A model generated the notes under the pieces. That model was not told where the DNA came from. It worked only from the letters and a program-made list of their open reading frames with translations, and did not search any database. A stretch of 64,000 nt of DNA from Chloroflexota bacterium (GTDB lineage: Bacteria; Chloroflexota; Anaerolineae; UBA2200; JACIWT01): positions 62,001 to 126,000 of the forward strand of contig JACIWT010000001.1 of the NCBI GenBank assembly GCA_014360825.1. The letters run 5' to 3'. Position numbers and translations under genes: made by a program. Positions 27,086-59,897 of this stretch are shown piece by piece (position 1 is the first letter of the stretch; each line of letters opens with the position of its first letter).

Positions 27086-28555
27086 ATGACTGTCTGTGAA
27101 CGAGGTGATGGTAATCGCAGAAAGACTATCGTGGCGCTGCTTGGCATCCTATTGCTTGCGGCGGTGCTACGTTTGGGTGGACTCGCCTCAGAGAGTCTTT
27201 GGTACGACGAGGCCTATAGCGTCTGGGTAGCCCGACACGATCTGGCTTGGCAGATTGCTATGAGCATCGAGCGCATCTATCCGCCGACCTATTACTTGCT
27301 TTTGCATATCTGGATGTTCCTTGGCGATAGCGAGTTCGTGGTCCGCGCTCTCTCGGCGGTCTTAGGGATAGTTTCAGTTGCCCTGATCTACATATTGGGA
27401 CAGGCGCTGTTTGATAGCGAGACTGGTCTTGTTGGTGCGTTCTTGCTTGCTATTGCGCCCCTGCATATATGGTATTCTCAAGAGGCGCGTATGTACATTC
27501 TGGTGGCATTGTTGCTCTCGGTCGGGAATTGGGCGCTCTGGCGGGCAGTGCACGCAAGTGAGCGGCGCTATTGGGCTCTTTACGCTGTTACAATAGGGCT
27601 GGCTTTCAGCGCACATTACCACGCTGTTTTCATTCTCACGGCGCATAATCTGTACATGATAGCGCGCTCTCTGATCCGTGGTAAATGGTGCGAGTGGCGG
27701 CCCTGGCTGGTGACCCAAGGGGCAGCGTTGGCGCTGGCTGCGGTGGGTTTAGCGGGCATATTCAGCGAAGAGGCCACCTTGTGGTGGGGTGAGTTAACCA
27801 AGCGGTATAGTGTGTCCTGGGTGGACCTTATCCGTACCGCTGCTGAATTCACCTATGGACTTACTTTCACTGGTGGAAGAATTGCCTATTGGGGCGGTCT
27901 GGCGCTCACTGGGGCATGTTGCATGGTGGCGTTGGTCAGTGCACGGCATCGAGGTGCGATTTCGGGTGCTGATTGGCCAGTAGATGAGGGAACGGTTTAC
28001 TGCTTGTTCCTCGCGGTCGTGCCCGTGTTGGCGGTGTGGGTGGTATCTCTGTGGAAATCGTTCTATGTATTGCGGTATCTGTTCCCGTTCATGCCCCCAT
28101 ATCTACTCTTGGTGGCGCGAGGAGCGCGCTTGCTGCGGTCCCCGTTTCTTCAGGCGTTCGCCTTAATCGCGATGGTGGTGCTGCTGGCCACGCCGCTAAT
28201 CAACATCTATATCCTCCCACAGAAAGAGGACTGGCGGGCAGCAGTAGCATATGTAAGCGAGCGCGAGGAACCTGGTGACTGGATTTATTTTGTGGATTAT
28301 TCGCTTTGGATACCATTTGACTACTACTATCAGGGCAGAGCCCATGAATCTGGCCTCAGTCGCTGGGTCACAGATTACGAACGCATTGGACAACAGGCCG
28401 ATGAGATGGCCGCAGACGCATCGCGGGTGTGGCTGGTGCAAAGTCATCTGGACAAATACGCAGTGGAAGAATATCTGTTGCGTGATCCGCGTTTCCTCCC
28501 GGTAGAGAGGGTGGAATTTTTGGGCATTCGGGTGGTGCTTTTCGAAGTGCTATGA
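27086..28555 (+). CDS. GT39/ArnT-like polytopic glycosyltransferase, paralogue of the preceding gene
   Basis: 489 residues from ATG 27086 (GTG at 27074 is possible; no strong ribosome-binding site for either). The acidic motif is ESLWYDEAYSVW, and the second family block is APLHIWYSQEARMYIL, almost the same as in its neighbour. The C-terminal soluble part has KEDWRAAVAYVSEREEPGDW. About ten membrane helices. The donor is expected to be a polyprenyl-linked sugar; the acceptor is unknown. Its stop overlaps the next start by 4 nt (ATGA). A 75-nt gap before it holds a weak GGCCA/TGGCC stem without a T run. Confidence 0.87.
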   Translation: MTVCERGDGNRRKTIVALLGILLLAAVLRLGGLASESLWYDEAYSVWVARHDLAWQIAMSIERIYPPTYYLLLHIWMFLGDSEFVVRALSAVLGIVSVALIYILGQALFDSETGLVGAFLLAIAPLHIWYSQEARMYILVALLLSVGNWALWRAVHASERRYWALYAVTIGLAFSAHYHAVFILTAHNLYMIARSLIRGKWCEWRPWLVTQGAALALAAVGLAGIFSEEATLWWGELTKRYSVSWVDLIRTAAEFTYGLTFTGGRIAYWGGLALTGACCMVALVSARHRGAISGADWPVDEGTVYCLFLAVVPVLAVWVVSLWKSFYVLRYLFPFMPPYLLLVARGARLLRSPFLQAFALIAMVVLLATPLINIYILPQKEDWRAAVAYVSEREEPGDWIYFVDYSLWIPFDYYYQGRAHESGLSRWVTDYERIGQQADEMAADASRVWLVQSHLDKYAVEEYLLRDPRFLPVERVEFLGIRVVLFEVL

Positions 28556-30153
28556 TGCTGCGAAGGAATTGGGCTCAACACATAGGTCTTTTTTTGGCCG
28601 TCATCGGGGTAATACTGGCCTTGTTGTTGGTGAACGGGCACCTGATGCTCGCCGGTGACAACGCGACATACATAGTACTGGGTCAGTCGCTTGCCTTGGG
28701 CAAGGGCTATCGCTTGATCAGCGACCCTCGAGAGCCACTGATGGCTCTCTACCCGTTTGGCTACCCGCTGTTATTGGCAGCAGTGCTGCGGCTGACTGGA
28801 AACACGCAAGATCTGTTGGCCGCTATTGTGCCCATGAAATTACTTTCAATTGCCTTTTTCGGCGGGTCTCTAGTGCTACTCTATGATCTACTGCAGAAGG
28901 AAGGACACTGGCTCGCAACGTTAGTAACGCTTCTCACTGCCGCTAACCCATACATGCTCGGGTTCGCCACCGAAGTGCAGACGGAGATAACGTTCTTCTT
29001 CCTTTCGCTGCTGGCATTGTGGCTCTATGAGAAACAGTATGCCTCAGGCCCAAGTTATCGTTGGCTGGCTATGGTTGCCGTGGTGTTGGGGGCATCGTGC
29101 TACATCCGCTCTTTGGGCCTCACGTTAGCGGTGGCACTAGGGCTGGCTTTGCTGTTGCGCAGATCATTCCGAGAAGCGATGACTCTTCTCGCCATATCCA
29201 CAGGGCTGGTTCTGCCTTGGGTGCTCTATGGGATGAGCCTGCCCTCCACGGGCACGCACGTGGCCTTAGGTCGGAGTTATCTGAGTATATATCTGGCGGG
29301 CGACCCATATGGCACCTTTGGCTTGACACCGGGCTTTGTCGTCGAGCGTTTAACGCAGAATCTCTACCTATACGGCGTGGAAATATTGCCCTATATGATT
29401 TTCCCTCATCTGCAGAGCATGCTGCGCTGGGAGGCAATGCGCTCGGTGTTACCGTTTTTGGCTGCGGGCATCAGCCTCCTGCCGGTTGTGGGTTTGATCA
29501 GGAGGTGGCGCAGTGGAGCGCGAGCAATGGAGTGCTATTTTGCCTTGTTTGTACTCTCAACCATTGCGTATCTGTGGGCGCAAGGTCGGCTGCTCGTGCC
29601 AGCACTGCCATTGATCCTGTACTACACGTTGCAGGGTCTAGAGGGTGTACTGAGTTTGGGGCAAGCGCTCCTGCGGGGACGGGTGCGAGAGGGTGCTATT
29701 TTGCTGACCGCAGTATTACTGCTCTCAGCACTAGTCGTAGACGGGCGGCGGATTGCCCGTAACATTGGGGAGAATATACACCTCTCGACCCTCGAATACT
29801 ATGACCGTGACGCGCCGCAGTGGTCGAACTACCTGCGTGCGATCTATTGGATTGATGGCGTAGCGCCGCGGGATGTCCACGTTATGTGCCGCAAGGCCGA
29901 TATCGTGTATTTGCTGACGGGACGGCAGGCGCTGGAATACCCTTATGTACCGCAACCGGAGCCGATGCTGGAATTAGCGGCAGAGACGAATGTGGGCTAC
30001 ATTATCCGCGATGCATTCACGTGGACAACGACCACGGTACAGTATCTTAGCCAGGCGTTGCGGGATGCTCAGAAAATGACGCCCAGTCCGGTAACGCTGG
30101 TGTACCGGACCGAGCCGCCAGTAACAGAGGTTTGGAAGGTGAAGGAGAACTGA
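28552..30153 (+). CDS. GT-C-type polytopic membrane protein (GT39-like)
   Basis: 533 residues with ATG overlapping the previous stop by 4 nt. The first outer loop is divergent: LAGDNATYIVLGQSLALG replaces the W-DE motif, with Asp in GDN as the likely acidic residue. Next come YPFGYPLLLAAVLRL and TANPYMLGFATEVQTE, where the family shows the P-motif and the ‘QTE’ acidic pair. Around 11 helices, then a C-terminal soluble part (IDGVAPRDVHVMCRKADIVY). Function as a glycosyltransferase is inferred from fold and context only. Confidence 0.8.
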   Translation: MMLRRNWAQHIGLFLAVIGVILALLLVNGHLMLAGDNATYIVLGQSLALGKGYRLISDPREPLMALYPFGYPLLLAAVLRLTGNTQDLLAAIVPMKLLSIAFFGGSLVLLYDLLQKEGHWLATLVTLLTAANPYMLGFATEVQTEITFFFLSLLALWLYEKQYASGPSYRWLAMVAVVLGASCYIRSLGLTLAVALGLALLLRRSFREAMTLLAISTGLVLPWVLYGMSLPSTGTHVALGRSYLSIYLAGDPYGTFGLTPGFVVERLTQNLYLYGVEILPYMIFPHLQSMLRWEAMRSVLPFLAAGISLLPVVGLIRRWRSGARAMECYFALFVLSTIAYLWAQGRLLVPALPLILYYTLQGLEGVLSLGQALLRGRVREGAILLTAVLLLSALVVDGRRIARNIGENIHLSTLEYYDRDAPQWSNYLRAIYWIDGVAPRDVHVMCRKADIVYLLTGRQALEYPYVPQPEPMLELAAETNVGYIIRDAFTWTTTTVQYLSQALRDAQKMTPSPVTLVYRTEPPVTEVWKVKEN

Positions 30154-30173
30154 CAATTGAGAGGAGCAATGGT

Positions 30174-30530
30174 ATGGGCAATCCAATCGGATTGGTTATG
30201 ATCGCTGTCGCTCTGGGCGTGACAGGACAATTGCTGATGAAAATGGGCATGAATCAAGTGGGCGCAATCGATGCCCTCAGCCTGGACATAGCCAAAAGCG
30301 TGGCAAGTAATCTGTACGTTGTCTTTGGCTTCGCCTGCTATGGGTTGTCATCAGTATTCTACCTCTTAGGGCTATCCAAGTTGGACCTGAGCGTAGCCTA
30401 TCCCCTGGTGGGTCTGGGTTACGTGTTGGTGGTGTTTTTCTCCTGGGCTCTGCTCAAGGAACCGGTTGATGTCTGGCGTTGGCTCGGAGTATTGTTGATT
30501 TTCGGTGGCGTGTGGTTGATCGGGCGCTAG
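30174..30530 (+). CDS. small multidrug-resistance/EamA-type membrane protein (ArnE/ArnF-like)
   Basis: 118 residues with four predicted membrane helices, the size of half an EamA protein. ATG 30174 is set by GAGGAG 8 nt upstream. The segment LDLSVAYPLVGLGYVLVV matches the conserved third helix of SMR/ArnE proteins (AYP). The helix-one Glu needed for drug/proton SMR transport is not seen, which argues against drug efflux. ArnE/F flip undecaprenyl-phosphate aminoarabinose; here a role in moving a lipid-linked sugar for the neighbouring GT-C enzymes is plausible (inference). Confidence 0.8.
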   Translation: MGNPIGLVMIAVALGVTGQLLMKMGMNQVGAIDALSLDIAKSVASNLYVVFGFACYGLSSVFYLLGLSKLDLSVAYPLVGLGYVLVVFFSWALLKEPVDVWRWLGVLLIFGGVWLIGR

Positions 30531-30539
30531 CGTGGTGGT

Positions 30540-32321
30540 GTGAGTGGGGCGATGGTCCGGACTCTCAAACTGAAGAGCGGTGTGGCGATACCGGCTACAA
30601 TGTTGGCTTTCTTGTGCGTGGTGATGACCTATCCGCTCATCACGGCGTTGGATTCGGCCATCCCCGACTTGAGCACATTAGACGCTTTCGAATATTGCTA
30701 CAAGTTGTGGTGGTTTAAGCACGCGATAGTGGACTTGCATATCTCGCCGTTTTTCAACTCGCGAGTCTTTTATCCGTTTGGCTATGATTTCGCCATGTCT
30801 GAAACCACATTGCCCAACATGGTGCTGGCGCTGCCTATCACGATGATGGCGGGCCACGTGGTAGGGTACAACATTCTCGTTTTGTTCTCGTTTTTCTTAT
30901 CGGCGCTGGGAGCCTATCTACTTGTGGTCTATTTAACGGAAAATCGGGCAGCAGGGATGGTAGCCGGCGCGATCTATGCGTTTTCGCCCTACCGCTACCA
31001 CATGGTTGTAGAGGGTGTGCTGCCGACATTCAGTACCCAGTGGGTGCCGTTCCTGTTCCTTAGTCTGGAGATCTACCTCCGCCGCTGGAGACCCTTTTAC
31101 GCCGTGCTGGCAGGATTTTTCTTGGCGCTGACAGCGCTCTCATCGTGGTACTACGGTTATATGGTGGGTTTGTTCGTACCGGTCTATGTGGTGGTGCGGA
31201 TGTGGGGTGCAGGTAGGCAGGTCTGGAGGCGCATTCTGCAGGGAGGCATTCTCTTGGCAGCGGTGACATTCGTGGCGTCTCTGCCGGGGCTGGTGCCGCT
31301 TTTGAGTGTGTGGGGTTCCGGGACGAATTGGTCATTGAGCCACGTGGACTGGTGGTCAGCCAGCCTGTCGGATTTCGTGTGGCCCAATATCCGGCACCCG
31401 TTGTGGGGGCGGGTGCTTTATCCGGCCTACGAGCAATTGACACGGGAGAATGACCTGTATTTGGGCATTGTGGCACTCACGTTAGCAGTAGTGGCTCTCC
31501 GAACACGGCGAGATCGGACCACTTGGGCCTACACCTGGTTGAGTGGGCTGGCTGGAGTGCTGGCATTGGGGCTAACATTGCATGTTCTACGAGATAGGCT
31601 CTACATAGGTGTTCCGAGTGAGGTCGAACGGGTTTTCACTGTGGGGATGGGGATGCTTGCCAAGCGCCTGGCGCTTAACCCCGCGCCAACGTACTACGCA
31701 TTGCGCCAACAGAACGCCATTTATGTTCCAATGCCCACATTTTTTCTATATCTTTTCTTGCCCTTCTTTAACACTATGCGTTTCTTCGCTCGTTTTGGGG
31801 TGTTGGTGACACTGGGTATGTCGGTGCTGGCTGGTTTGGGCACGACAGAGGTGCTTCGGCGTGTGAGCCGACCGTTGGCTGTCGCTGGAGTGCTCCTGGC
31901 ACTGGTCCTTTTCGAGTTCGCCGTCGAACCGACACAGATGGGCCTGGCTAGCGCTGCACCCAGAGCGATTGACAAATGGTTAGCAGCGCAACCGGGGGAT
32001 TTTGCAGTTATCGAGTTCCCGATAGATTCCGCGCTCACGGGCCGAGGTCTATTTGGCACGATCACTCACGGCAAAGCCATTGCTTATGGTTATGGCACCT
32101 TTTATCCCGCTGGCTTCCAAGCAGCGCGAGCGGAGTTGAGCCAGTTCCCAAGTGAGGCCAGCGTAGATATTTTGCGACGCTGGGGTGTGCGTTATGCCCT
32201 GGTGGACACAGTTCGGTATGGGGATGAGTGGCCTCGCATATTAGCAGAACTGACGTCCATGACGGGTCTGCGGATGGTGGAGATAGCCGGCCAATTTCAC
32301 GTATATGAGGTCTTGCCATGA
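30540..32321 (+). CDS. ~600-aa polytopic GT-C/YfhO-like membrane protein, array copy 1
   Basis: 593 residues (GTG 30540; ATG 30552 is an alternative). First of five tandem paralogues. Shared blocks in order: MTYPL at the end of helix 1; WWFKHAI..DLHISPFF and VFYPFGYD in the first outer loop with SETTL; APYR/SPYRYH; STQWVPFLF; TALSSWYY; HPLWG; RLYIGVPSEVE; AKRLALNP; MPTFFLYLFLPFFN-MR. A soluble tail follows (QPGDFAVIEFP, HGKAIAYGYGTFYP, RRWGVRYALVD) ending YEVLP. About 12 helices. It resembles YfhO- or PTPS-related membrane proteins, a presumed glycosyltransferase group. The tail codons supply the Shine-Dalgarno site for copy 2. Confidence 0.82.
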   Translation: MSGAMVRTLKLKSGVAIPATMLAFLCVVMTYPLITALDSAIPDLSTLDAFEYCYKLWWFKHAIVDLHISPFFNSRVFYPFGYDFAMSETTLPNMVLALPITMMAGHVVGYNILVLFSFFLSALGAYLLVVYLTENRAAGMVAGAIYAFSPYRYHMVVEGVLPTFSTQWVPFLFLSLEIYLRRWRPFYAVLAGFFLALTALSSWYYGYMVGLFVPVYVVVRMWGAGRQVWRRILQGGILLAAVTFVASLPGLVPLLSVWGSGTNWSLSHVDWWSASLSDFVWPNIRHPLWGRVLYPAYEQLTRENDLYLGIVALTLAVVALRTRRDRTTWAYTWLSGLAGVLALGLTLHVLRDRLYIGVPSEVERVFTVGMGMLAKRLALNPAPTYYALRQQNAIYVPMPTFFLYLFLPFFNTMRFFARFGVLVTLGMSVLAGLGTTEVLRRVSRPLAVAGVLLALVLFEFAVEPTQMGLASAAPRAIDKWLAAQPGDFAVIEFPIDSALTGRGLFGTITHGKAIAYGYGTFYPAGFQAARAELSQFPSEASVDILRRWGVRYALVDTVRYGDEWPRILAELTSMTGLRMVEIAGQFHVYEVLP

Positions 32322-34153
32322 GGGCGCAGGGGCGGATGCTATCAGTCCTGGGTCTTTTCGTGGCGCTCAGTGCCGTGATGACCTATCCAATGGTGCTCCA
32401 TGCGATGAATGCCATTCCCGGTCCGCCAGCCGATAATTTTGAGGTGCTTTACCGCGTCTGGTGGTTTAAGCACAGCCTGTTTGATTTACATATATCGCCT
32501 TTCTTCAACCCAGATGTGTTTTATCCCTTTGGCTACGACCTGAGTCTGGGCGAGTCCACACTCGCAAATATGGCGTTCAGCCTGCCCGTGACGCTGGCTG
32601 GTGGGCATATATTTTCCTATAACCTGATCATGTGGGGTACCTTTGTTCTATCGGGTTTCGGCATGTACCTGTGGGCCCATCGGGTCCTTGGCCATCGGGG
32701 AGCAGCCATTGTCGCAGGGGTGGTCTATGCTTACTGTCCTTACCGGCTATTGCATTTGACGAGCGGTCAAGTTGCCCAGGTGAGCACGCAATGGCTGCCA
32801 TTTATGTTGCTTTGTTTAGATCGCGCTCTCGAGCGGCGGGATGTACGCGCTGCAGCGATGGCTGGGTTGTTTTACGCGCTGACGGCGCTCTCGGCGTGGT
32901 ATTACCTGGCCATTGCAGGGTTGTTCGTGGTGCTGTATGGAATCCTGCGGATGCGTCCGTGGAGAGAATCCTTGCGCGATCGAGCGCTCTGGCATTGTGC
33001 GCTGGTGTTTGTGACAGTGGTAGCGGTATGCTTAGGGCCGTTGGTGGTGCGAAACCTCAGCCTTTTGTGGGGCGATGAGATGGGTTATTCGCTGTGGTAT
33101 GTAGATGCACTCTCGCCCAGTCTCAACGATCTGTTTTTCCCACGGGTGTTACGCCCGCTGTGGGGCGGCGAACCACTCAACCAGGATGAATATGATTTCT
33201 CCGTGCACCTGTACTTGGGCGTCCCGGCACTGGCACTGGCAACGGTGGGAGTATGGAAACAGCGGAGGCCGTTCGTCAAAATAATGCTCGTCATTGAGTT
33301 GGTGGCGCTGGTCCTGTCATTGGGACCACGGCTGCGCTGGGATGGTGGACCGGTGTTGATACCGGTGCCGCCGACCGTGGAGAGGGCTTTCACGGCGGGA
33401 ATGGGCATTCTCGCCAAGCGGTTGGCGTTGTACCCAGCACCATCGTATTACATGCTCCGCGAGCCAGGCAGCGTCTACATCCCGCTTCCGGCGCTCCTTT
33501 TGCGACTTTTTGTACCCTCTTTCCAGTATGTGCGCCAATGGTCCCGCTTCCTAGTGCTCACACTACTGGCGCTGGCAATGCTGGCGGGGTTTGGTGCGGC
33601 GGCGATCTCCCAACAGGTGGGTGGTCGGGCGGCGTGGGTATTGGCTCTATTGGTCGCGTTATCCATGTTTGATAGCGCCATTTTGCCCTACCGTTTCGGC
33701 TTGTGCATGGTAGGGCCACAGCCGGTGGATGATTGGCTGGCGGCCCAGCCTGGCCACGACCCGGTAGCGGAGTTCCCCTATTACCGTTTTGGAGGCAATG
33801 GGCCGCTGCTCTATCGCGCGGTGTATCACGGTAAGCCCATCGTTTCAGGTGCAAGCACGTTCGTTCCATCCGGCCACCGCGAGGCACGCCCTGTGTTGGT
33901 TGCTTTTCCTGACGAAGAGGCGCTCGTGTTGCTGCGCAGTTGGGGTGTGCGTTACATCGTGATGAGTTCGGCAGCCTACGGAGCAGATTGGCCGCAAGTC
34001 CAGGGGGTATTGACAGCCCAACCTGATCTACGTTTTGTGGCATCTTTCGATGATGTACCAGTCTATCACGATGGCCGGTTGCTGGATATCGTGCCTGGCT
34101 ATGAGTTATCTTTGCCTCTTGGTCAGGAATTTGTATACGAGATAATCTACTAA
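32318..34153 (+). CDS. ~600-aa polytopic GT-C/YfhO-like membrane protein, array copy 2
   Basis: 611 residues; ATG overlaps the previous stop (ATGA) behind a GAGGTC site. It has the same block order as copy 1: PPADNFEVLYRVWWFKH, FNPDVFYPFGYDLSLGES, STQWLPFMLL, LTALSAWYY, RPLWGG, LIPVPPTVE, AKRLALYPAPSYY, IPLPALLLRLFVPSF. The soluble tail is AAQPGHDPVAEFPYYRF, with SWGVRYIVMSS. Compared with copy 1, it carries an extra ~20 residues at the C-terminus (VYHDGRLLDIVPGYEL) before YEIIY. These are shared with copy 5, so copies 2 and 5 look closer in this region. Presumed membrane glycosyltransferase or glycan-handling protein. Confidence 0.82.
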   Translation: MRAQGRMLSVLGLFVALSAVMTYPMVLHAMNAIPGPPADNFEVLYRVWWFKHSLFDLHISPFFNPDVFYPFGYDLSLGESTLANMAFSLPVTLAGGHIFSYNLIMWGTFVLSGFGMYLWAHRVLGHRGAAIVAGVVYAYCPYRLLHLTSGQVAQVSTQWLPFMLLCLDRALERRDVRAAAMAGLFYALTALSAWYYLAIAGLFVVLYGILRMRPWRESLRDRALWHCALVFVTVVAVCLGPLVVRNLSLLWGDEMGYSLWYVDALSPSLNDLFFPRVLRPLWGGEPLNQDEYDFSVHLYLGVPALALATVGVWKQRRPFVKIMLVIELVALVLSLGPRLRWDGGPVLIPVPPTVERAFTAGMGILAKRLALYPAPSYYMLREPGSVYIPLPALLLRLFVPSFQYVRQWSRFLVLTLLALAMLAGFGAAAISQQVGGRAAWVLALLVALSMFDSAILPYRFGLCMVGPQPVDDWLAAQPGHDPVAEFPYYRFGGNGPLLYRAVYHGKPIVSGASTFVPSGHREARPVLVAFPDEEALVLLRSWGVRYIVMSSAAYGADWPQVQGVLTAQPDLRFVASFDDVPVYHDGRLLDIVPGYELSLPLGQEFVYEIIY

Positions 34154-34180
34154 CAATGCTGCTTTTCACAGGGGGATAAC

Positions 34181-35077
34181 TTGGAAGAGGTGCGTTGTAA
34201 TCTTTGCGGTGGAGATAGCACTGTTCCTGTGGCTCAAATCAATGGGTTCAATATCGTTCGGTGCCAGCATTGTGGCCTAACTTATGTGAACCCCCGCCTC
34301 AATATTGACGAAGTTCACGCCATCTACGATGAGCGGTATTACCGCAATGAGGGTCTGCAAAATGGCAATGGGTCACAGTTTTTTGGCTACGATGATTATT
34401 TGGGTGACGAGGAGAACATCCGGCTGACCTTTGCTAAGCGCCTACGCACCATTGAAGTCTATGTTGAGCGCGGACGGCTATTGGACATCGGGTGTGCAAC
34501 TGGCTTTTTCCTTAATGTGGCGCGCGACCATGGTTGGGATGTGGTGGGTACAGAAGTCTCGGAATACAGTGTAGACTATGCTCGTTCGCATTTCGGATTA
34601 GACGTGCGACTGGGAACTTTGCGGGATATTCGTTTCGAAAGCGACACTTTCGATGTGGTGACGATGTGGGATGTGATTGAGCATCTGACTGACCCGATGG
34701 GCGAGTTGCAGGAGATCCGACGGATCCTTCGCCCCGGGGGACTGCTCTCCATCATCACGCCCAATGTAGATAGCCTGGTGGCCCGTGTGTTGGGACCACG
34801 CTGGGAGGAATTCCGCCGAGTCCGAGAGCATCTTTACTTCTTCTCGCCCAGGACGCTGGCCGCCATGCTCGATCGCGTTGGTTTCGTGGTGCTCAAGACG
34901 GAGAGCGCAGACAAGTTTTTCTATCTGGGTCCTGCCGTCCGACGGATGCGCTACTACCTGTGGGACAGCGTGGCTACGGATATACTTTATCGGATTGTGC
35001 ATCGCCTGCGGCTGGACAAGGTGCGGCTGAACGTGAATCCATTCACCAAGGTAGCACTTTATGCGCGTAAGGAGTGA
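34181..35077 (+). CDS. class I SAM methyltransferase with N-terminal zinc ribbon
   Basis: 298 residues, starting at TTG 34181 set by AGGGGGATAAC directly before it; no ATG fits. An N-terminal zinc-ribbon has Cys6, Cys9, Cys28 and Cys31 (CNLCGG...RCQHCGLTYVNPR). A Methyltransf_23-type Rossmann domain has LLDIGCATGFF near residue 105, VGTEVSEYSVDYA, and DVVTMWDVIEHLTDP. Such enzymes methylate sugars, glycolipids or polyketide-like substrates in glycan loci. It lies within the tandem array between copies 2 and 3, in the same orientation and closely spaced, so probably co-translated. Confidence 0.92.
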   Translation: MEEVRCNLCGGDSTVPVAQINGFNIVRCQHCGLTYVNPRLNIDEVHAIYDERYYRNEGLQNGNGSQFFGYDDYLGDEENIRLTFAKRLRTIEVYVERGRLLDIGCATGFFLNVARDHGWDVVGTEVSEYSVDYARSHFGLDVRLGTLRDIRFESDTFDVVTMWDVIEHLTDPMGELQEIRRILRPGGLLSIITPNVDSLVARVLGPRWEEFRRVREHLYFFSPRTLAAMLDRVGFVVLKTESADKFFYLGPAVRRMRYYLWDSVATDILYRIVHRLRLDKVRLNVNPFTKVALYARKE

Positions 35078-35080
35078 GAG

Positions 35081-36994
35081 GTGCAGGTAGCGGGGAGAGA
35101 ACGTCAGTGGGTCTTGCCCTGGGCAGTGTTAGGGCTGTTACTGGTCCTGACGCTGGCCATGACCTACCCGTTAATCACATATATGACCGAGGCGGTACCG
35201 GGACCACCAGGCGATAACCTGAGTTATCTTTGGAAGTTATGGTGGTTCAAACACGCCTTCTTTGAACGACATTGTAATCCGTTGTTTAATCCCGATGTGT
35301 TCTATCCGACTGGCTACGACCTGCAGTCTGATGAGACGTCTCTGGCCAATGTTCTAATTGGCATGCCTTTCATCCTAATTGGCGGGGACATCGTGGGTTT
35401 CAATGTGCTGATCCTACTGTCGTATGTCCTCAGTGGATTGGGAATGTACCTTTTGGCTTATTACCTCACTGGCAGCCGACTCGCGGGACTGGTGGGCGGG
35501 GTATTCTTTGCTTTTGCACCCTATCGTGCTTATGTGGTAGGCGCGGGATGGATGAATAGTATTGGGACGCAGTGGTTACCACTCATGCTCTTATACACGG
35601 AAATGACCATTCGCAAGCGAGCCTGGACTCGGGGAGCAATGACGGGATTTTTCTATGCGCTGGCCGGGTTGTCATCGTGGTATTATGCCTGGCTGGGGGC
35701 GATTTTGCTCTTACTCTACGTGCTCTTGCGGGCACGGCCCTGGCCGGAGTATCTGACTGATAGGCAGATTTGGGCTTGTCTGTTAGCATTCGCCTTGGTG
35801 ACGGCAGTGCTTTTCGGGCCGGTGATCTTCTCTATGGTGTGTTCGCGGGCTGCAATTGGCTCGCCGAGTGTGCCTCTGAGCGATGGGCCGGGGATGAGCC
35901 TGGATGATTTCGTGGTGCCCAGCCTGTACCATCCGTTTTGGGGCCCGCGCTTGCTGGAATTGAGGGATCGAGTTGTGCCAGGGTACCCCTTCTGGATTTA
36001 CGGGCTCGGTTATCTAGGTTGGGTGGTGCTTGGATTGGCTGCACTAGCCCTATGGCGTTGGCGTCGTGGGAACATGCGGAGTGAGGGTCTGGCAGCATTG
36101 GTGACCATCAGCGTGGTATGCGCGTTTCTGGCATTGGGGCCACTTCTCCATGTTGCTGGGCAACGGGTATACATCTCTGTTCCGGGAATGGTCGAGAACC
36201 TCTTCAACCGTGCGATCAGTTTCGTCTCGCGGCGGCTCGCTCTACACCCGACTGCTGCCTATTACCACTTCCAACAATCAGGAACCATCTGGTTGCCTAT
36301 GCCGACCTATTTCCTATACCTATGGGTTCCAACGTTTAACGTGATGCGGATTTGGGCACGTTTTGGGCTACTCACTACACTGGCCGTATGCGCGATTGCT
36401 GCAATCGGGGTAGCGTGCTTGTTAGAGAATGTGCGAAGGCAGCACGTGCGGTGGGCTATAGTGGTCATCGTGATGGGTTTAGCCTTGGCGGATTTCGCCA
36501 CCATACCTTTGCCATACGGCCGCTCATTGATCGTGGAACAGCCGTATGACGTATGGCTTCGAGAACATGCCAGTGAGGGGCCTATTATGGCCTTCCCACC
36601 TTTAGAAGCAGCCATGAGCACGACACTCCTATACAGTACCAAGTTCCACGGGCGGCCGGTGTGTTATGGTTTCACGTCGTTCTACCCGCCACAATTCCAG
36701 GAGGCCGTAGCACAGTTATGGGGATTCCCAGATGAGGCTAGTTTAATGGTTTTAAGGCGTTGGGGTGTGCGTTATGTGATAGTGTTTTCCAGTCGGTACG
36801 AGCCAAGTGCGTGGCGAGATATGTTAGTTCGGTTGGAAGCGGAGCCCAGTTTGCGGCTGGTGACCCGCTGCGAGGAAAAGCCCATTTTCGAGGACGACCG
36901 TTTAGACTCAAGGAATATCAAGACCGAAACGGTGATCAGTCGGGCCATGTTTTGGGATCCCGGTACCGTCTACATTTATGAGTGTGACTTATGA
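35081..36994 (+). CDS. ~600-aa polytopic GT-C/YfhO-like membrane protein, array copy 3
   Basis: 637 residues, the longest copy. GTG 35081 follows GGAGTGAGAG. Family blocks: MTYPLITYM, PPGDNLSYLWKLWWFKHAF, FNPDVFYPTGYDLQSDETSL, APYRAY, GTQWLPLMLL, GLSSWYYAWL, HPFWGP, RVYISVPGMVE, SRRLALHPTAAYY, MPTYFLYLWVPTFNVMRIW, RRWGVRYVIVF, ending IYECDL. It is divergent from the others at several positions (HCNPLF for HISPFF, YPTGYD for YPFGYD), suggesting an older split or different acceptor. Overlaps copy 4 by 4 nt. Confidence 0.82.
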   Translation: MQVAGRERQWVLPWAVLGLLLVLTLAMTYPLITYMTEAVPGPPGDNLSYLWKLWWFKHAFFERHCNPLFNPDVFYPTGYDLQSDETSLANVLIGMPFILIGGDIVGFNVLILLSYVLSGLGMYLLAYYLTGSRLAGLVGGVFFAFAPYRAYVVGAGWMNSIGTQWLPLMLLYTEMTIRKRAWTRGAMTGFFYALAGLSSWYYAWLGAILLLLYVLLRARPWPEYLTDRQIWACLLAFALVTAVLFGPVIFSMVCSRAAIGSPSVPLSDGPGMSLDDFVVPSLYHPFWGPRLLELRDRVVPGYPFWIYGLGYLGWVVLGLAALALWRWRRGNMRSEGLAALVTISVVCAFLALGPLLHVAGQRVYISVPGMVENLFNRAISFVSRRLALHPTAAYYHFQQSGTIWLPMPTYFLYLWVPTFNVMRIWARFGLLTTLAVCAIAAIGVACLLENVRRQHVRWAIVVIVMGLALADFATIPLPYGRSLIVEQPYDVWLREHASEGPIMAFPPLEAAMSTTLLYSTKFHGRPVCYGFTSFYPPQFQEAVAQLWGFPDEASLMVLRRWGVRYVIVFSSRYEPSAWRDMLVRLEAEPSLRLVTRCEEKPIFEDDRLDSRNIKTETVISRAMFWDPGTVYIYECDL

Positions 36995-38868
36995 TGAGTT
37001 GGCAGACACGAAAAAGAATACAGACCGCCCTCGTCATCATACTCTTTCTTGCACTGACCGTGATTCTCACCTACCCGATGGTTACTTATTTCCGCGAGGC
37101 AATACCCGGACCTCCTTGGGATGGCTTTTATTATTTAACTCTGCTGCACTGGTTCAGAGAGGCACTCTTTGAGCGTCATGTTTCACCTTGGTTCCACCCT
37201 GACATCTTCTATCCCTTTGGCTACAACCTGGCGCTCTCAGAAACTACGTTGAGCAACGTGGCATTGGGGATGCCTGTGAATTTGCTGTGGGGCGAGGTGG
37301 TGGCGTTTAACGCCCTGATGTGGCTGTCTTTCGTACTTTCTGGATTTGGGGCCTATTTGCTGACCTATGACTTGACCGGGCAGAGAATTGCAGGCTTAGT
37401 GAGCGGGGTAGCCTTCGCTTTCTGTGCCTACCGGATGCAGGCCATGAGTTCAGGTTGGTTACCTACAGTCAGCACGCAGTGGGTGCCCCTCACCTTTTTG
37501 TATGTGGAGCGGACCATTCGTCTCCAGCGGCGTCGCGACGCAGTGCTGGCGGGGTTGTTCTACATCCTGAATTGCCAGGCCACATGGTACTACGCTTACG
37601 TATTGGGTCTCGTGTTGATGGTCTATGTGTTCGTCCGCCTGCGGCCCTGGCGTGAAACCATGCGTAACCGACGACTGTGGTACTGTGGGCTGGCTTTCGC
37701 GCTCACCTTGCTGCTCATGGTTCCGGCTGCAATGCCGTTGATACGGCTCTGGGGGCAACGGCAGATGCAGTATAGCCTGCCCGAGGTGGATTGGCTATCC
37801 ACATCGCTGGATGACTTTTTCTTGCCGTGTGCTTATCATCCCCTTTGGGGTAGCCTATCGTTAAAGTGGTACAACGATTGGGTGCCTTACTATCCCTGGA
37901 TTGTGCCTGGCATGGCATATCCAGGCCTGAGCGTCGTTGTTTTGGCCGTCTTGGCAAGGCGTTCTCGAAAAGACCGTCTGCTGTGGAGAGCGTTGCTTAT
38001 GATTGCAGCGGTGGCCTTCGTGCTGGCGTTGGGTATGACGCTGCATTTACGTGGCGAACGGGTGTACATTCCAGTTCCAGCGGTGGTGGAGCGCGCTTTT
38101 ACCAAGGTTATGATTGCGCTCTCCAAGCGAGTAGCACTGAACCCGGTGGCAGCCTATGCTATGCCCGAAGGCCAGGGCATCTATATTCCGTTGCCGACCT
38201 TTTTCCTTTATTTGTTTCTGCCATTTTTCAATGCCATGCGTGATTGGACGCGTTTCGCGCTGGTGCCAGCCTTCGCGCTCTCCATTTTGGCGGGGATAGG
38301 AGCAGGACGTCTGTTGGCTACGAGGTATGGGGTCGCGCGGTCTGTTTTGACGGCAGGGCTGATAGGAGTCGTAGTCGTGGACCTGGCGGCAGTCCCGCTG
38401 CCCTTCGGAATGTCGTTAGTACAGCCAAGACCATCGGATACCTGGCTGGCGCAACAGCCGGGCGACTTCGCGATCATGCAGTTTCCATTCCGAGCGCGCG
38501 CGTATGCGGGGCCATCGCTCTATGGCATGGTGACGCACCAAAAGAAAGTGACCTACGGCTCTGGTCTTACATTTTTCCCGCTGGCTTATGCGGCGTATCT
38601 AGAGACCTTGCAGAGTTTTCCCAGTGCAGAGAGTGTGAGTTTACTGCGGGGTTGGGGTGTGAGGTTCATTTTGGTGGGCTCCACGCGTTATGCGCACGAG
38701 TGGCCGGCCGTGGAAGCCGGTATCCGAGCGCGCGCTGACCTGAAATTGGTGGCCGTGTTGGACGAACCGTCCGTGTACGTAGCGTATCGGCCAGGCCCTA
38801 TGACAGGACGCACGAATGACCTGCGTTGGACAGCAGATCGGGTTTACCTTTATGAGGTGTTGCCTTGA
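36991..38868 (+). CDS. ~600-aa polytopic GT-C/YfhO-like membrane protein, array copy 4
   Basis: 625 residues; ATGATG start overlapping the copy 3 stop. Blocks: LTYPMVTYF, PPWDGFYYLTLLHWFREAL, FHPDIFYPFGYNLALSETTL, STQWVPLTFLY, then NCQATWYYAY where others have TALSSWYY. Then HPLWGS, RVYIPVPAVVE, SKRVALNPVAAY, IPLPTFFLYLFLPFFNAMRDW, RGWGVRFILVGS, ending YEVLP. The WWFKH block is changed to HWFRE, the clearest loss of a conserved feature in the array. If WWFKH helps bind a lipid phosphate, this copy should differ in activity. The final codons carry GAGGTG for copy 5. Confidence 0.82.
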   Translation: MMSWQTRKRIQTALVIILFLALTVILTYPMVTYFREAIPGPPWDGFYYLTLLHWFREALFERHVSPWFHPDIFYPFGYNLALSETTLSNVALGMPVNLLWGEVVAFNALMWLSFVLSGFGAYLLTYDLTGQRIAGLVSGVAFAFCAYRMQAMSSGWLPTVSTQWVPLTFLYVERTIRLQRRRDAVLAGLFYILNCQATWYYAYVLGLVLMVYVFVRLRPWRETMRNRRLWYCGLAFALTLLLMVPAAMPLIRLWGQRQMQYSLPEVDWLSTSLDDFFLPCAYHPLWGSLSLKWYNDWVPYYPWIVPGMAYPGLSVVVLAVLARRSRKDRLLWRALLMIAAVAFVLALGMTLHLRGERVYIPVPAVVERAFTKVMIALSKRVALNPVAAYAMPEGQGIYIPLPTFFLYLFLPFFNAMRDWTRFALVPAFALSILAGIGAGRLLATRYGVARSVLTAGLIGVVVVDLAAVPLPFGMSLVQPRPSDTWLAQQPGDFAIMQFPFRARAYAGPSLYGMVTHQKKVTYGSGLTFFPLAYAAYLETLQSFPSAESVSLLRGWGVRFILVGSTRYAHEWPAVEAGIRARADLKLVAVLDEPSVYVAYRPGPMTGRTNDLRWTADRVYLYEVLP

Positions 38869-40694
38869 ATGAGGGAAGGAGGCACTTAGTTGCCCTCACA
38901 ATATTCATCGCATTGACGCTGGTGATGACTTACCCTCTTGGCCTGCGAATTGGGAATGCCATCTTAGGGGTCCCAGTGCCCGGAGATGGCTACGAATATA
39001 TGTACAAGTGTTGGTGGCTGAAACACGCGTTGCTAGATGAGCACATATCACCATTGTATAACCCTGACGTGTTCTATCCATTTGGCTATGGTTTTGAGAT
39101 GTCGGAGGGCACGTTAGCCAATACTCTCTGGGCGTTGCCATTCACATTGATGTTCGGTGAAGTCGCCGCTTATAACCTAGTCATGTTGTGGTCATTTGTG
39201 CTATCGGGTTTCACAGCCTATTTGCTTGTCTTTCAGATGACCCGCTCGGGGATGGCAGGATTGTTGGCGGGCGTCGTTTTCGCTTTTTTGCCCTACCGTA
39301 TGGTGCACCTTGGGTTAGGCCAGGTGCCTATGATGAGCACAGGCTGGATGCCTTTGTGCTTCTTGTATCTGCGATGGGGTATAAGGGAGGACAAAACACG
39401 CTGGGGGATAATGGCAGGCCTAATGTACGCGCTGACCGCTCTGTCCTCGTGGTACTACGCCTATATCCTGGGGCTTTTCGCTGGGCTGTATGTGTTGTGG
39501 CGGGGAAGGCTGCGGCAACGGGAGTGTTGGCAGTGGGTCGCCTCTTTTGTGGTGGTGGCCATACTTATGGTGGGTCCATTTGCGTGGCGGCTGGCAGGAT
39601 TGTCAGAACAACTGGGGGGTAGGCGATACTCGCTCTCGTACGTAGATCAATGGTCTGCGGGCCTTCTGGAGTTCGTCTTGCCAGCCAATGCCTATCATCC
39701 CATTTGGGGAAGTGCGTTTCGACCTTTTTTCCGCTATGAGACCCAGAGCATCGTCTATTTAGGGCTGGTGTCTCTGGCGCTGGCAGGGGTGGCTCTGCGA
39801 GCACGATGGAGAGACAGAGGTGTGCGTGATTTCGCCGTGCTGGGCGCTGTGGCAGTAGTGCTGGCTTTAGGGACAACGTTGCACATATTGCGTGAACGGT
39901 TGTATGTATCCGTTCCGGCGGGAGTCGAGCGGTTGTTCACTGCAGGCATGAGTGTGCTGACGAAGCAACTGGCTTTAAATCCGATTTCCTCTTACGTCCT
40001 GCGTGTACCAGGGGCGCTGTACATTCCGCTGCCAACGTTACTGCTATATTTATTTATGCCCTCGTTCAATCTCATGAGGGTGTGGGCACGATTCGGCGTC
40101 ATAGCGGGGCTGTCGGTGGCCGTATTGGCGGGTGTGGGGTTGGCATCACTGCTGGAACGGGTAACTCGTGGGAGGTGGTTGGTAGCCGTCGTGGCAATTG
40201 GGATGGTGTTAATCGATTTCGCTGTGTTGCCCTACCCGTTGGGTTGGTGCGAGGTGCGTGCGCAGACCACTGCCCAATGGCTGGCTGCACAGGATGGAGA
40301 TTTTGTAGTAATGCGGTTGCCGACCCATTATGCCTTGCGCGGCTCATCGCTTTACGATACCATCACTCACGGTAAGCGTATCGCGTACGGCTATGGGACC
40401 TTTTTCCCCCAAGGCTTTGAGGAAGAACGGGAGACACTGGACAGTTTTCCGTCGCCGGAAAGCCTAGAGGTGATGCGCGGATGGGATGTGCGTTACGTGC
40501 TTGTGGGCTCCCAAGCGTTTGGGAAGCGCTGGCCGGAGATAGAGCACGCTTTGGATGTTGCGGATTTGCGTTTGGCAGCGATCGTGGATGAGCAGCCCGT
40601 TTATCACGATGACCGCTTGCTAAAGACGCGCCCTGGTTATGAGGAGGCCTTTCTGGTGGATCGAGTTTATATCTACGAGTTGTTGCCGCAATGA
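38865..40694 (+). CDS. ~600-aa polytopic GT-C/YfhO-like membrane protein, array copy 5
   Basis: 609 residues starting at TTG 38865, which overlaps the stop of copy 4 (TTGA) and sits 5 nt after GAGGTG; no ATG is available before helix 1. Blocks: MTYPLGLRI, PGDGYEYMYKCWWLKHAL, YNPDVFYPFGYGFEMSEGTL, PYRMVHLG, STGWMPLCFL, TALSSWYYAY, HPIWGS, RLYVSVPAGVE, TKQLALNPISSYV, IPLPTLLLYLFMPSFNLMRVW, MRGWDVRYVLVGS. The tail has VYHDDRLLKTRPGYEEAF, like copy 2, then IYELLPQ. Its stop overlaps the next gene by 4 nt. Confidence 0.82.
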   Translation: MNEGRRHLVALTIFIALTLVMTYPLGLRIGNAILGVPVPGDGYEYMYKCWWLKHALLDEHISPLYNPDVFYPFGYGFEMSEGTLANTLWALPFTLMFGEVAAYNLVMLWSFVLSGFTAYLLVFQMTRSGMAGLLAGVVFAFLPYRMVHLGLGQVPMMSTGWMPLCFLYLRWGIREDKTRWGIMAGLMYALTALSSWYYAYILGLFAGLYVLWRGRLRQRECWQWVASFVVVAILMVGPFAWRLAGLSEQLGGRRYSLSYVDQWSAGLLEFVLPANAYHPIWGSAFRPFFRYETQSIVYLGLVSLALAGVALRARWRDRGVRDFAVLGAVAVVLALGTTLHILRERLYVSVPAGVERLFTAGMSVLTKQLALNPISSYVLRVPGALYIPLPTLLLYLFMPSFNLMRVWARFGVIAGLSVAVLAGVGLASLLERVTRGRWLVAVVAIGMVLIDFAVLPYPLGWCEVRAQTTAQWLAAQDGDFVVMRLPTHYALRGSSLYDTITHGKRIAYGYGTFFPQGFEEERETLDSFPSPESLEVMRGWDVRYVLVGSQAFGKRWPEIEHALDVADLRLAAIVDEQPVYHDDRLLKTRPGYEEAFLVDRVYIYELLPQ

Positions 40695-42310
40695 ACGCAA
40701 AACGCATGTCGCGTCAAAAGTGGATATTGGGCATGCTTGTCGGCCTGCTGGTTTTCGCTATCTTGGCGACGACGCTGGACGATTTCGGCATTAACTGGGA
40801 TGAGCCCTTATACATGAAAGCAGCCACGCGCTATCTGGCTTGGTTAGGTATTCTGCGCCAAGATTTGCTGCGCGGAAATCTGGGCCATGCGTTGAGCGAC
40901 TCGGTAATAACCGAGTGGTGGGTGCAGCCGTTTGAGTTACACCCACCGGTGGGCAAATTGGTAGCAGGCATAAGTTGGGCATTGACCCGCCGCTTCGCTC
41001 ACCCGATAGCAATGTTCCGATTGGGTTATGCAGCCATTTTCGCCCTGATGACAATGGTCCTTTTCTGGATGGTTGCTGAAATAAGAGATACCAGGAGCGC
41101 AACGTTCAGTGTCTCGGCGCTATTGCTCATGCCCCACGTGTTTGCTTACGCTAACATGGTTGCGCTTGACTCCCTGCTTACTTCCCTCTGGGTTATGGCA
41201 GTCTATGTTTTCTGGAAAGTGCGCGATAAAGCACACTGGGGTTGGACGTTCGTGCTCGGCCTGCTATTCGGTCTTGCGTTTGGCACCAAATTCACTGCTA
41301 TATTGATGCCTGCGACCTTGTTCCTGTGGGTTCTTCTCTACCGACGATCGCGGGGGCTTTTCTTCCGCCTGGTCGCCATGGGTCTGATCGGTTTTGCGAC
41401 GTTCTTCCTGATATGGCCTTGGCTCTACGCTGCACCGCTTGAACGCTTAGCGATGTATTTGGGCGCGGTTTTCGGCATTGGACAGCAGATGGGAGTTGAA
41501 TTCAGCCATGCTACCAAGACGCAGTACTATCTGGGACAGGTGTATCATGGCTCTCCATGGCATTACCCTTTCGTGCTAACCTTCGCCACTGTCCCTGCGA
41601 CCTTAATGCTGACTTGTCTGGTCGGTGGAATTGTGTTCGTTCGGGCAGCACGGCGAGACGAGGCAGCGGGGCTTGTACTGCTCAACATCGCTGTGCCGAT
41701 CGCGGTGACGGCTACCGGTTTATCGGCGGCTTACAATGGTGTGCGCCAGTTCCTGCCGGTGTTCCCCTATCTGGCGGCGCTGGCGGGGACTGGGTTTGGT
41801 GTGCTGGCGGATTGGGTAGAGGCTCGGCTGAGTGGTCGCGGGTTCTGGCTTGTGGTGTTGGTCACGGTTGTGGTGGCTCTGGCTTTGCTTATTCCACCAG
41901 CGCGCTCGTTGGTTAACATTCATCCATACGAACTGGCGTACTACAGTGAGTGGGTGGGTGGGGTGCCGGGTGCGTATCGTCTCGGTTTAGAGACAACCTT
42001 TTGGTGTGACACGTATATAGATGCACTGCCTTATCTCAACGCCCACGCAGCGCCGGGTGAATTGATCTGGGCTGAGAGTCCGGCCCCTTTGCGGATGTAC
42101 CAACAGTTGGGTATGTTGCGATGCGATGTGACCATCCGAGGTGGCGATCTCGTGGATCCGTATACATGCGATTTTGCGGTGATCCAGGCACGACAGAGTG
42201 GATACACTACTCGCATCCGTGAGATATTAGCCACTCGCCAAGCGGTTCATAGCCTGTGGTATAATGGGGTATTACTGATGGCGATCTACCATTGGGAGAA
42301 AGCGCTGTGA
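40691..42310 (+). CDS. PMT/GT39-like polytopic mannosyl- or glycosyltransferase
   Basis: 539 residues; ATG overlaps the preceding stop. Acidic first-loop motif FGINWDEPLYMKAATRYL and, unlike ArnT, a long first loop (~50 residues) ending EWWVQPFELHPPVGKLV with HPP. The second block is LLMPHVFAYANMVALDSLL, with KFTAILMPATLFLW afterwards. These match PMT_2/dolichyl-P-mannose mannosyltransferase-like bacterial proteins. The C-terminal third has VNIHPYELAYYSEWVGG, a recognisable motif in this subgroup. About 11 helices. It should take a sugar from polyprenyl phosphate on the outer side. Confidence 0.87.
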   Translation: MNAKRMSRQKWILGMLVGLLVFAILATTLDDFGINWDEPLYMKAATRYLAWLGILRQDLLRGNLGHALSDSVITEWWVQPFELHPPVGKLVAGISWALTRRFAHPIAMFRLGYAAIFALMTMVLFWMVAEIRDTRSATFSVSALLLMPHVFAYANMVALDSLLTSLWVMAVYVFWKVRDKAHWGWTFVLGLLFGLAFGTKFTAILMPATLFLWVLLYRRSRGLFFRLVAMGLIGFATFFLIWPWLYAAPLERLAMYLGAVFGIGQQMGVEFSHATKTQYYLGQVYHGSPWHYPFVLTFATVPATLMLTCLVGGIVFVRAARRDEAAGLVLLNIAVPIAVTATGLSAAYNGVRQFLPVFPYLAALAGTGFGVLADWVEARLSGRGFWLVVLVTVVVALALLIPPARSLVNIHPYELAYYSEWVGGVPGAYRLGLETTFWCDTYIDALPYLNAHAAPGELIWAESPAPLRMYQQLGMLRCDVTIRGGDLVDPYTCDFAVIQARQSGYTTRIREILATRQAVHSLWYNGVLLMAIYHWEKAL

Positions 42311-43746
42311 GAGTCGTGGAGCGTTTGCGTGCCGTGTGGAATGGCAGTCTCCGACTGGATATAAGCGTTCGTGATGTATTTAGCCTGACTCTATTGCTTG
42401 GGTTGGCTACGGTGCTTTTGTTCTTCAGGCTAGGGGAGGGGAGCCTGGCCGACTACGATGAGGCAACGTATGCCCAGATCGCCAAAGAAGCCCTGAGGAC
42501 AAACGATTGGCTGACGCCGCATTGGAACGGCGTGCCCATTTTCGACAAACCGCCACTCTCGATGTGGCTGACAGCGCTGGCATACAAGGTCTTCGGCATC
42601 AACGAATTCGCCGCGCGGTTCTGGTCGGCGGCTTTCGGCTTGGGTGTTGTGGTGATAACCTATGCCATTGGGAGGATGCTATTTGGCTGGGTCGCGGGAT
42701 TGGGCGGGGCACTACTCTTGCTGACGGTGCAGAATACACCTCACAGTTATGGCTACAATTTCGTGGCCCTTTCGCGACAAGGGATGCTGGATAGTACGCT
42801 TATCTTTTGGCTATGTCTGGCTGCACTCTTGGCTTGGAAGGGCCGTGAAAGGCCTCGGTGCTGGGTGTGGATGGGCGTGCCGCTAGGACTGGCGTTGATG
42901 ACTAAGAGCGCTGCGGCACTGGTGCACTATGGGATCATCACGCTATATCTGTTTCTGAGCCAAGGGCCCAGGCTGTTTCGCCGCGCCGAATTCTGGGCGG
43001 GCCTCGGCGTCAGCGCCCTCATTGGGCTACCCTGGTATCTCTATCAATTGGTGATTCATGGTTACGAGTTCTTCTTTCGCTTTGTAATACTACACATCTT
43101 TGGCTACGCTAGTGGTTGGCAAGGTCATACTGAAACGACACCATGGTTCTACCTGGGGGTTATCCGCAACGGGTTCCCGGTTTCCTGGCTGGCCATGATT
43201 CCGGCAGCAGGATACGGACTCTGGCAGGTCATTTACAAGCGAGGGTACCAGTGGCTTCTTTTGCTCTGCTGGGTGGTGGTACCGCTGATATTGTTCAGCG
43301 CGGCCAACACCCGCATCGCCTGGTATATCCAGCCGACATACCCAGCCCTAGCACTCCTAATCGCCGGGCTGATCACCAGGCTCTTTAGAGGCGGATGGGG
43401 GATACTGGTCATTGGGATTTTGGTGGCCTTTGGGTTGCGCCTGCCGATGGTAGGCGATCTCAGCGCTGACGTAAAGCGGGTGGCCCAAGAAGCACGCTGT
43501 CTGGCGGGGCCCGACGGCGAATATCTCATTTTCTGGCGTGATGCGCCTATCCCAAGGCCATCCGCCCTCTATTATCTGGATGCAGCTCGCTTTGCGGCGA
43601 CCGAGGAGGATTTGGTGATGCAATTACCGGAGACAGCGTATATCGTGACCGATGTGGTGTCTTGGGATGGTATGGAGCGTTGGGGCAACATCGTATATCG
43701 TGCTGGCAACGAATTGCTGGTTGTGCCACGGCGTAACGGGAGGTAA
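42307..43746 (+). CDS. ArnT/GT39-type polytopic glycosyltransferase
   Basis: 479 residues from GTG 42307, which overlaps the previous stop (GTGA) behind GGGAGAA; a TTG at 42292 is less likely. Of all GT-C proteins here it is closest to ArnT. EGSLADYDEATYAQIAKEAL is the first-loop acidic motif, WNGVPIFDKPPLSMWLTAL the second (DKPPL), and NFVALSRQGMLDSTL the third. ArnT moves aminoarabinose from undecaprenyl phosphate to lipid A. No lipid A genes are present here, so the acceptor is something else. The next gene is a sugar aminotransferase, a pairing that fits an amino-sugar donor (inference). Confidence 0.9.
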   Translation: MRVVERLRAVWNGSLRLDISVRDVFSLTLLLGLATVLLFFRLGEGSLADYDEATYAQIAKEALRTNDWLTPHWNGVPIFDKPPLSMWLTALAYKVFGINEFAARFWSAAFGLGVVVITYAIGRMLFGWVAGLGGALLLLTVQNTPHSYGYNFVALSRQGMLDSTLIFWLCLAALLAWKGRERPRCWVWMGVPLGLALMTKSAAALVHYGIITLYLFLSQGPRLFRRAEFWAGLGVSALIGLPWYLYQLVIHGYEFFFRFVILHIFGYASGWQGHTETTPWFYLGVIRNGFPVSWLAMIPAAGYGLWQVIYKRGYQWLLLLCWVVVPLILFSAANTRIAWYIQPTYPALALLIAGLITRLFRGGWGILVIGILVAFGLRLPMVGDLSADVKRVAQEARCLAGPDGEYLIFWRDAPIPRPSALYYLDAARFAATEEDLVMQLPETAYIVTDVVSWDGMERWGNIVYRAGNELLVVPRRNGR

Positions 43747-49529: not shown

Positions 49530-49530
49530 T

Positions 49531-59141: not shown

Positions 59142-59897
59142 ATGTATAAGAATCACACTGTATCAGTGGTGCTCCCATGCTATAACGAGGAAGAGGGCGT
59201 GCGGGCGGTGTTGTCGGATATGCCATCTGTGGTGGATGAGGTCATTGTTGTGGACAATAACAGTACCGATCGCACGGCAGAGGTGGCTCGGTCGTTGGGT
59301 GCACGGGTGATTGAGGAGAAGCGACAGGGCTATGGCGCGGCATACAAAGCAGGGTTTCGGGCCGCAACAGGCGATATCATTGTGACGATGGATGGCGATG
59401 GTACCTATCCGCGCAATTTCATCCCTGTGCTCTTGGATGTGATGTTTGCAGAGGATATTGATTTCATCACCTGTGACCGTACCGGTCACAAGATTGGTCA
59501 GAAGGGGTTCACACTCCGAGTATTGGGCAATTCGATCCTCAACTTTTTCCTGGCCCTGCTGTTTTTCGTGCGGCTCCGCGATTCACAATCGGGGATGTGG
59601 GTCTTTCGGCGGGAGATACTCTCGCTACTCACACTCACAAGCGATGGGATGCCTTTCTCGGAAGAAATCAAGGTGGAGGCATTCACCCATCCTCAGGTAA
59701 GGGCGGAGGAGTTGCCAATTTACTACGTCTCGCGCGTGGGTGACAGCAAGTTAAATATGTGGCGCGATGGGTTTAACAACCTCTTCTTCCTATTCAAAAA
59801 ACGCTGGGAGAGATGGTTCCATGACCGTCGCCCCATTCTTTTCCCGGAAGAGGCAGGCCATTCACAAGAGCATGTGCAAGGAAGTGGAGGGCAATAG
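59142..59897 (+). CDS. GT2 glycosyltransferase (DPM1-like)
   Basis: 251 residues; ATG 59142 follows GAGGAGATAT. VVLPCYNEEEGVRAVLSDM, VIVVDNNSTDRT, VTMDGDGTYPRNFI (DGDG metal site), RDSQSGMWVFRREIL and FSEEIKVEAFTH are seen. The region after the core (YYVSRVGDSKLNMWRDG) has a second charged patch used to recognise the lipid carrier. Membrane-contacting hydrophobic stretch near residue 130 (ILNFFLALLFFV). Expected product: polyprenyl-phosphate sugar for the GT-C enzymes. Confidence 0.92.
   Translation: MYKNHTVSVVLPCYNEEEGVRAVLSDMPSVVDEVIVVDNNSTDRTAEVARSLGARVIEEKRQGYGAAYKAGFRAATGDIIVTMDGDGTYPRNFIPVLLDVMFAEDIDFITCDRTGHKIGQKGFTLRVLGNSILNFFLALLFFVRLRDSQSGMWVFRREILSLLTLTSDGMPFSEEIKVEAFTHPQVRAEELPIYYVSRVGDSKLNMWRDGFNNLFFLFKKRWERWFHDRRPILFPEEAGHSQEHVQGSGGQ

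Follow-up and report, generated by a model that had tools for sequence, protein, structure and literature searches.

Organization of the array and its gene block

Five genes encoding members of one membrane protein family (P1-P5) are arranged in tandem between positions 30540 and 40694 of the window, that is, the whole stretch of 64,000 nucleotides analyzed ( Table 1 ). All five genes are intact, lie on the + strand and encode products of 593-637 aa. Overlaps of 4 nt join P1 to P2, P3 to P4, P4 to P5 and P5 to the gene that follows, and a single methyltransferase gene is inserted between P2 and P3. In full-length alignments the identity to P1 is 41% for P2, 38% for P3, 42% for P4 and 47% for P5, with a mean column identity of 58% among the five. 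With P1 as query, a genome search recovered P2-P5 at E values of 6e-111 to 5e-149, which excludes chance. A previous reading of this DNA from the sequence alone had described five tandem paralogues of about 600 residues, joined mostly by 4-nt overlaps and interrupted by one methyltransferase that separates copy 2 from copy 3; the open reading frames and the 38-47% identities to P1 confirm this layout.

Table 1. Genes of the array and its immediate surroundings.
Feature	Position	Strand	Remarks
ArnF/ArnE-like SMR protein, predicted polyprenyl-phosphate-sugar flippase	30132-30530	+	NCBIfam ArnF/ArnE, Pfam EamA and Multi_Drug_Res
P1, GT-C-like family	30540-32321	+	593 aa; candidate catalytic Asp48, codon 30681-30683
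P2, GT-C-like family	32318-34153	+	611 aa; equivalent residue Asp39
SAM-dependent methyltransferase between P2 and P3	34181-35077	+	Pfam Methyltransf_23, 1.4e-30
P3, GT-C-like family	35081-36994	+	637 aa; equivalent residue Asp45
P4, GT-C-like family	36991-38868	+	625 aa; HWFRE replaces WWFKH; equivalent Asp44 kept
P5, GT-C-like family	38865-40694	+	609 aa; equivalent residue Asp41
Two PMT_2 (GT39-type) genes after the array, the second ArnT-like	40691-43746	+	Pfam, synteny

The array lies inside a co-directional, glycosyltransferase-rich gene block running from about 23037 to 63481. Two radical-SAM-like genes (23037-25495) head the block, and their position is kept in related genomes. The first and second of the genes directly downstream of the array match Pfam PMT_2 at 3.5e-14 and 1.7e-18, respectively, and the second (42292-43746) also matches the ArnT model at 1.4e-30, below its cutoff. 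A further gene (43752-44897) encodes a WecE-type dTDP-4-amino-4,6-dideoxygalactose transaminase scoring above one NCBIfam cutoff, which suggests that a 4-amino-4,6-dideoxy sugar, one with no evident tie to P1-P5, is made in the block. Also, a single open reading frame at 49468-50808 joins an AglJ-like GT2 domain to a methyltransferase domain behind it, apparently as a fusion.

Family status, predicted fold and candidate active site

GT-C enzymes build much of the bacterial cell exterior, and their fast divergence makes new families difficult to recognize in sequence searches. Most members of the P1-P5 family are covered by neither Pfam nor NCBIfam models. P2 is the only copy to reach a Pfam cutoff, that of PTPS_related (PF10131), and does so exactly (26.4 bits, cutoff 26.4); among 35 relatives, 10 have matches to this model with E values of 0.01 or lower. 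In contrast, no match to it was listed for P1, P3, P4 or P5, nor was one found in eight distant relatives scanned singly, none of which had any GT-C-type Pfam match. YfhO (PF09586; cutoff 28.5 bits) scored below cutoff with P1 (16.2) and P5 (8.1), as did PMT_2 (PF13231; cutoff 26.1 bits) with P2 (21.8), the only copy listed. At E 0.01 or better, YfhO matched nine of the 35 relatives, weakly and over part of their length, PMT_2 four and STT3 one. These four Pfam families belong to a single clan, GT-C. The NCBIfam scan of P1-P5 returned nothing relevant, with no match to ArnT (NF009784), and no related PDB sequence came up when the family profile was used as query. Profile comparison did reveal a remote relationship to the PMT_2 gene at 25505-27010, with an E value of 3e-7 where reversed controls gave 0.1 or worse. 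Weak hhalign matches to three further GT-C-type genes of the window, 40691-42310, 42292-43746 and 28552-30153 (E 0.002-0.003; reversed controls 0.13-0.23), were not relied on. The sequence-only reading had proposed an undescribed glycosyltransferase family. To Pfam and NCBIfam the family does look new, while enzymes and systems of this type are already known.

The gene at 28552-30153, syntenic in related genomes, encodes a membrane protein of 533 aa for which neither Pfam nor NCBIfam gave a meaningful match. Its GDNATY...YPFGYP stretch is similar to the first-loop motif of P1-P5, and it perhaps represents another unnamed GT-C family.

An AlphaFold2 model of P1 was built from 16 sequences of the window and of named relatives (pLDDT 87.9, pTM 0.89); an earlier model from the five window copies alone was poor (pLDDT 62.7) and was set aside. 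In structural comparison, the 50 listed matches of the P1 model consisted entirely of GT-C enzymes and related proteins like PIG-U. The highest scores were obtained with yeast and human STT3 (Z 20-21 over about 460 residues, the best being 20.9 over 461), followed by Pmt4 (20.2), AftD (19.2), DPY19 (18.6), PglB (18.0), ArnT (17.4 over 445 residues) and AftA (17.2), and at greater distance by ALG9/ALG12 (14-15), the Emb proteins (12-13) and PIG-U (about 10). The match extends to the last residue of P1 and thus takes in the C-terminal alpha/beta domain (about 470-593). Foldseek placed these same proteins on top with probability 1.00 and gave transporters 0.15 or less. A transporter fold had been named beforehand as one outcome that would count against a glycosyltransferase; the model and the structure searches point to GT-C instead, and a GT-C fold for the P1-P5 family has, as a prediction, good support.

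The top rank of STT3 (Z 20.9) could speak for another reading, in which P1-P5 would use a polyprenyl-diphosphate-linked oligosaccharide and, like STT3 and PglB, function as oligosaccharyltransferases or ligases instead of transferring single sugars from a monophosphate. Enzymes using monophosphate donors (Pmt4, AftD, DPY19, ArnT) score so close behind, however, that the structural ranking does not decide the donor type. The WWD(Y/N)G motif of STT3 is absent from all five translations, and flippases of the ArnF-like kind partner single-sugar lipid phosphates (PMC9574504), which makes a diphosphate donor improbable.

Since PIG-U shares the GT-C fold without having glycosyltransferase activity (PMC12041525), the fold by itself is no proof of catalysis, and P1-P5 could in principle be PIG-U-like scaffold or transport proteins. 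In the P1 model a loop and then a helix at 49-65 come after the first transmembrane helix (residues 16-35). Asp48 lies directly before the 49-65 helix, and the loop charges agree with an outer placement of this first loop. The catalytic Asp of PimE, ALG6, ArnT and PglB lies at the JM1 apex (PMC12041525), and Asp48 appears to occupy the same place, as compared by its position in the model rather than by superposition. Pairing of Asp48 with the catalytic residues of GT39 enzymes by profile alignment was attempted, but the alignment was unreadable there, so that the assignment rests on model position. All 35 relatives have residues identical to Asp48, Arg414 and Arg418, the two Arg being found in the loop ahead of a late transmembrane helix, and 34 of the 35 keep His510. 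An invariant Asp at the catalytic position, scores for active GT-C enzymes far above that of PIG-U and the low Foldseek probabilities for transporters all argue against a non-enzymatic role, which we regard as highly improbable.

The residue patterns also bear on earlier proposals. An acidic residue of the first outer loop had been predicted as part of the active site, and Asp48 answers to this description. The WWFKH motif, to which the sequence-only reading also gave weight, did not hold up as a signature of that site: located on the juxtamembrane helix, it is exact in P1-P3 and reads HWFRE in P4 and WWLKH in P5, and the second W is its one residue that comes close to being invariant among the 35 relatives (33/35; K 24/35, H 19/35), whereas Asp48, Arg414 and Arg418 are invariant. 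Copy 4 had further been said to lose both WWFKH and TALSSWYY. Its sequences are indeed HWFRE and NCQATWYY, yet the WYY portion, present in all five copies, is still there. P4 retains the Asp, both Arg, the His and WYY, and therefore shows no sign of being dead.

Predicted flippase, partner transferases and proposed mechanism

A gene encoding a 132-residue SMR protein ends 10 bp upstream of P1. The best NCBIfam matches of its product are ArnF (1.8e-16) and ArnE (1.1e-10), subunits of the flippase for undecaprenyl-phosphate-aminoarabinose, both below the equivalog cutoffs. Its first transmembrane stretch contains no acidic residue, and the same is true of its aligned homologues. Lipid-type SMR proteins often replace the central Glu (PMC9574504, a review). 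In seven related genomes (G001-G007) the best match to this protein adjoins a member of the P1-P5 family. In the f2 genomes examined for gene order (five whole, G006 in part) two radical-SAM genes, two PMT_2 genes, a gene of the 28552 type and the SMR gene precede one family copy, which is followed by a PMT_2 gene, an ArnT-like gene and later by GT2 and NodB-like genes. This order is that of the window, but with one family gene in place of the window's five plus methyltransferase. A methyltransferase homologue adjoins a family gene in G005 and G006.

The window holds several AglJ/PpgS/ArnC-like GT2 genes, none of them adjacent to P1-P5; one, at 59142-59897, matches AglJ at E 1.4e-35. In other genomes a GT2 of the lipid-sugar-synthase type lies next to a family gene. 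This is the case in G007, G013, G027 and L011, where a homologue of the GT2 at 59142-59897 precedes another family copy, and in L013 and L014, where the order is family gene, SMR, GT2. The combination of a GT2, a flippase and a GT-C enzyme is a known three-component or multi-component arrangement (PMC11127046, PMC8035078). The lipid-phosphate donor suggested by the sequence-only reading fits this context, given the ArnF-like flippase gene here and its counterpart beside a family gene in seven genomes.

Taking the modeled fold and the neighborhood together, P1-P5 are probably GT-C glycosyltransferases dependent on polyprenyl-phosphate sugars. Adding these sugars on the outer side of the cytoplasmic membrane would be the final step of a multi-component system. 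A GT2 of the DPM1 type would load the sugar onto polyprenyl phosphate in the cytoplasm, as its family and the context suggest, and the ArnF-like SMR protein would flip the lipid-linked sugar across the membrane. Each GT-C copy would then pass the sugar on to an acceptor at the cell surface, probably either a polysaccharide or the glycan of a glycoprotein. Asp48 of P1, capping the first juxtamembrane helix, would serve as general base, with Arg414, Arg418 and His510 as candidates for holding the phosphate or the acceptor.

Three known systems resemble this one in part. With the arn system (ArnC, ArnE/ArnF, ArnT) it shares the GT-C fold (ArnT, Z 17.4), a gene for an ArnE/ArnF-type SMR flippase adjoining that for the GT-C protein and ArnC-similar GT2s in the same block; it differs in having five paralogues, in which ArnT membership is not detectable by sequence, and a separate ArnT-like gene of its own (42292-43746). 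The YfhO/CsbB/GtcA systems of Gram-positive bacteria show the same division of labor between GT-A, flippase and GT-C (PMC8035078), and weak, partial YfhO matches occur in 9/35 relatives. P1, however, reaches 16.2 of the 28.5 bits that YfhO requires, and the flippase is of the GtrA type there and of the ArnE/F type here. In mycobacteria, AftA, AftD and the Emb proteins, together with the SMR protein Rv3789, use a polyprenyl-phosphate sugar to build one envelope polymer (PMC11127046). Several GT-C enzymes and an SMR-family flippase are common to both cases (AftD Z 19.2, AftA 17.2), but no sequence relationship was detected with the arabinosyltransferases, and here the enzymes are tandem paralogues in an operon-like block. 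With the flippase and partner transferases in a conserved block, both donor and acceptor are open to testing.

Distribution and history of the array

A search with P1 found two more close copies in its own genome, on contigs C5 and C17, both isolated, with no flippase or GT2 partners nearby. Searched with the family profile, this genome (2.9 Mb, 64 contigs) yielded 11 matches, more distant ones included. Profile matches occur in 38 of 41 related genomes, and the wide family is therefore common in the class, although mostly missed by Pfam and NCBIfam. The close form of about 600 residues is rarer; it includes some 40 residues (profile positions ~357-400) that the alignments of most distant members skip. 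In the phylum-wide search six candidates were scored in each genome, which makes its counts minimum values. Nearly all named relatives belong to the Chloroflexota, class Anaerolineae, the one exception being an actinomycetotal MAG. Among the relatives found, no close one has the five-gene array.

In a tree of 30 family members, P1 groups with the two other copies of its own genome (100/99). P3 and P4 fall together with copies belonging to other families in the class (97/95), whereas P5 joins, weakly, the syntenic single copies (79/95.9). Forcing the seven own-genome copies into one clade costs 30 log-likelihood units and is rejected (AU p = 0.023); the array is therefore not simply a recent duplication series. 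Repeated duplication, the origin previously supposed, is thus at best part of the story, related genomes having a single copy at this site. More likely, old paralogues were gathered at a former one-gene site, or old duplications were combined with lateral movement. P5 is the best candidate for the counterpart of the relatives' single syntenic copy; the same placement for P1 is not rejected (p = 0.23), P5 being favored. The idea that P3 arrived together with the methyltransferase as one cassette, prompted by the methyltransferase beside a family gene in G005 and G006, was discarded, the grouping of P3 with the family copies of those two genomes being weakly rejected (p = 0.047).

The old, mixed-clade history makes it likely that the five products differ in specificity. 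That they serve different acceptors or linkages is nonetheless the most speculative step of the mechanism, drawn from their divergence and tree positions. Five divergent old paralogues and a methyltransferase behind one flippase might make different linkages of one branched, perhaps methylated, surface glycan, a picture that we offer as tentative. Redundant or dosage copies of a single activity would explain why all five have the same invariant residues, why they stand behind one flippase gene and why one copy at this site suffices in related genomes, yet identities of 38-47% to P1, placement in different clades and the AU test (p = 0.023) speak for old, separate roles, and we consider redundancy rather unlikely. 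The array offers a natural set for studying how GT-C paralogues change linkage or acceptor.

In another Chloroflexota MAG two family members stand in tandem behind an AglJ-like GT2 (L011:5701-9927), a second case independent of the first. Also, the open frame of a distant member (L037:820-3417) contains a formiminotransferase-cyclodeaminase domain (FTCD_C, E 4.8e-33), which may be either fused to it or part of an upstream gene in the same frame.
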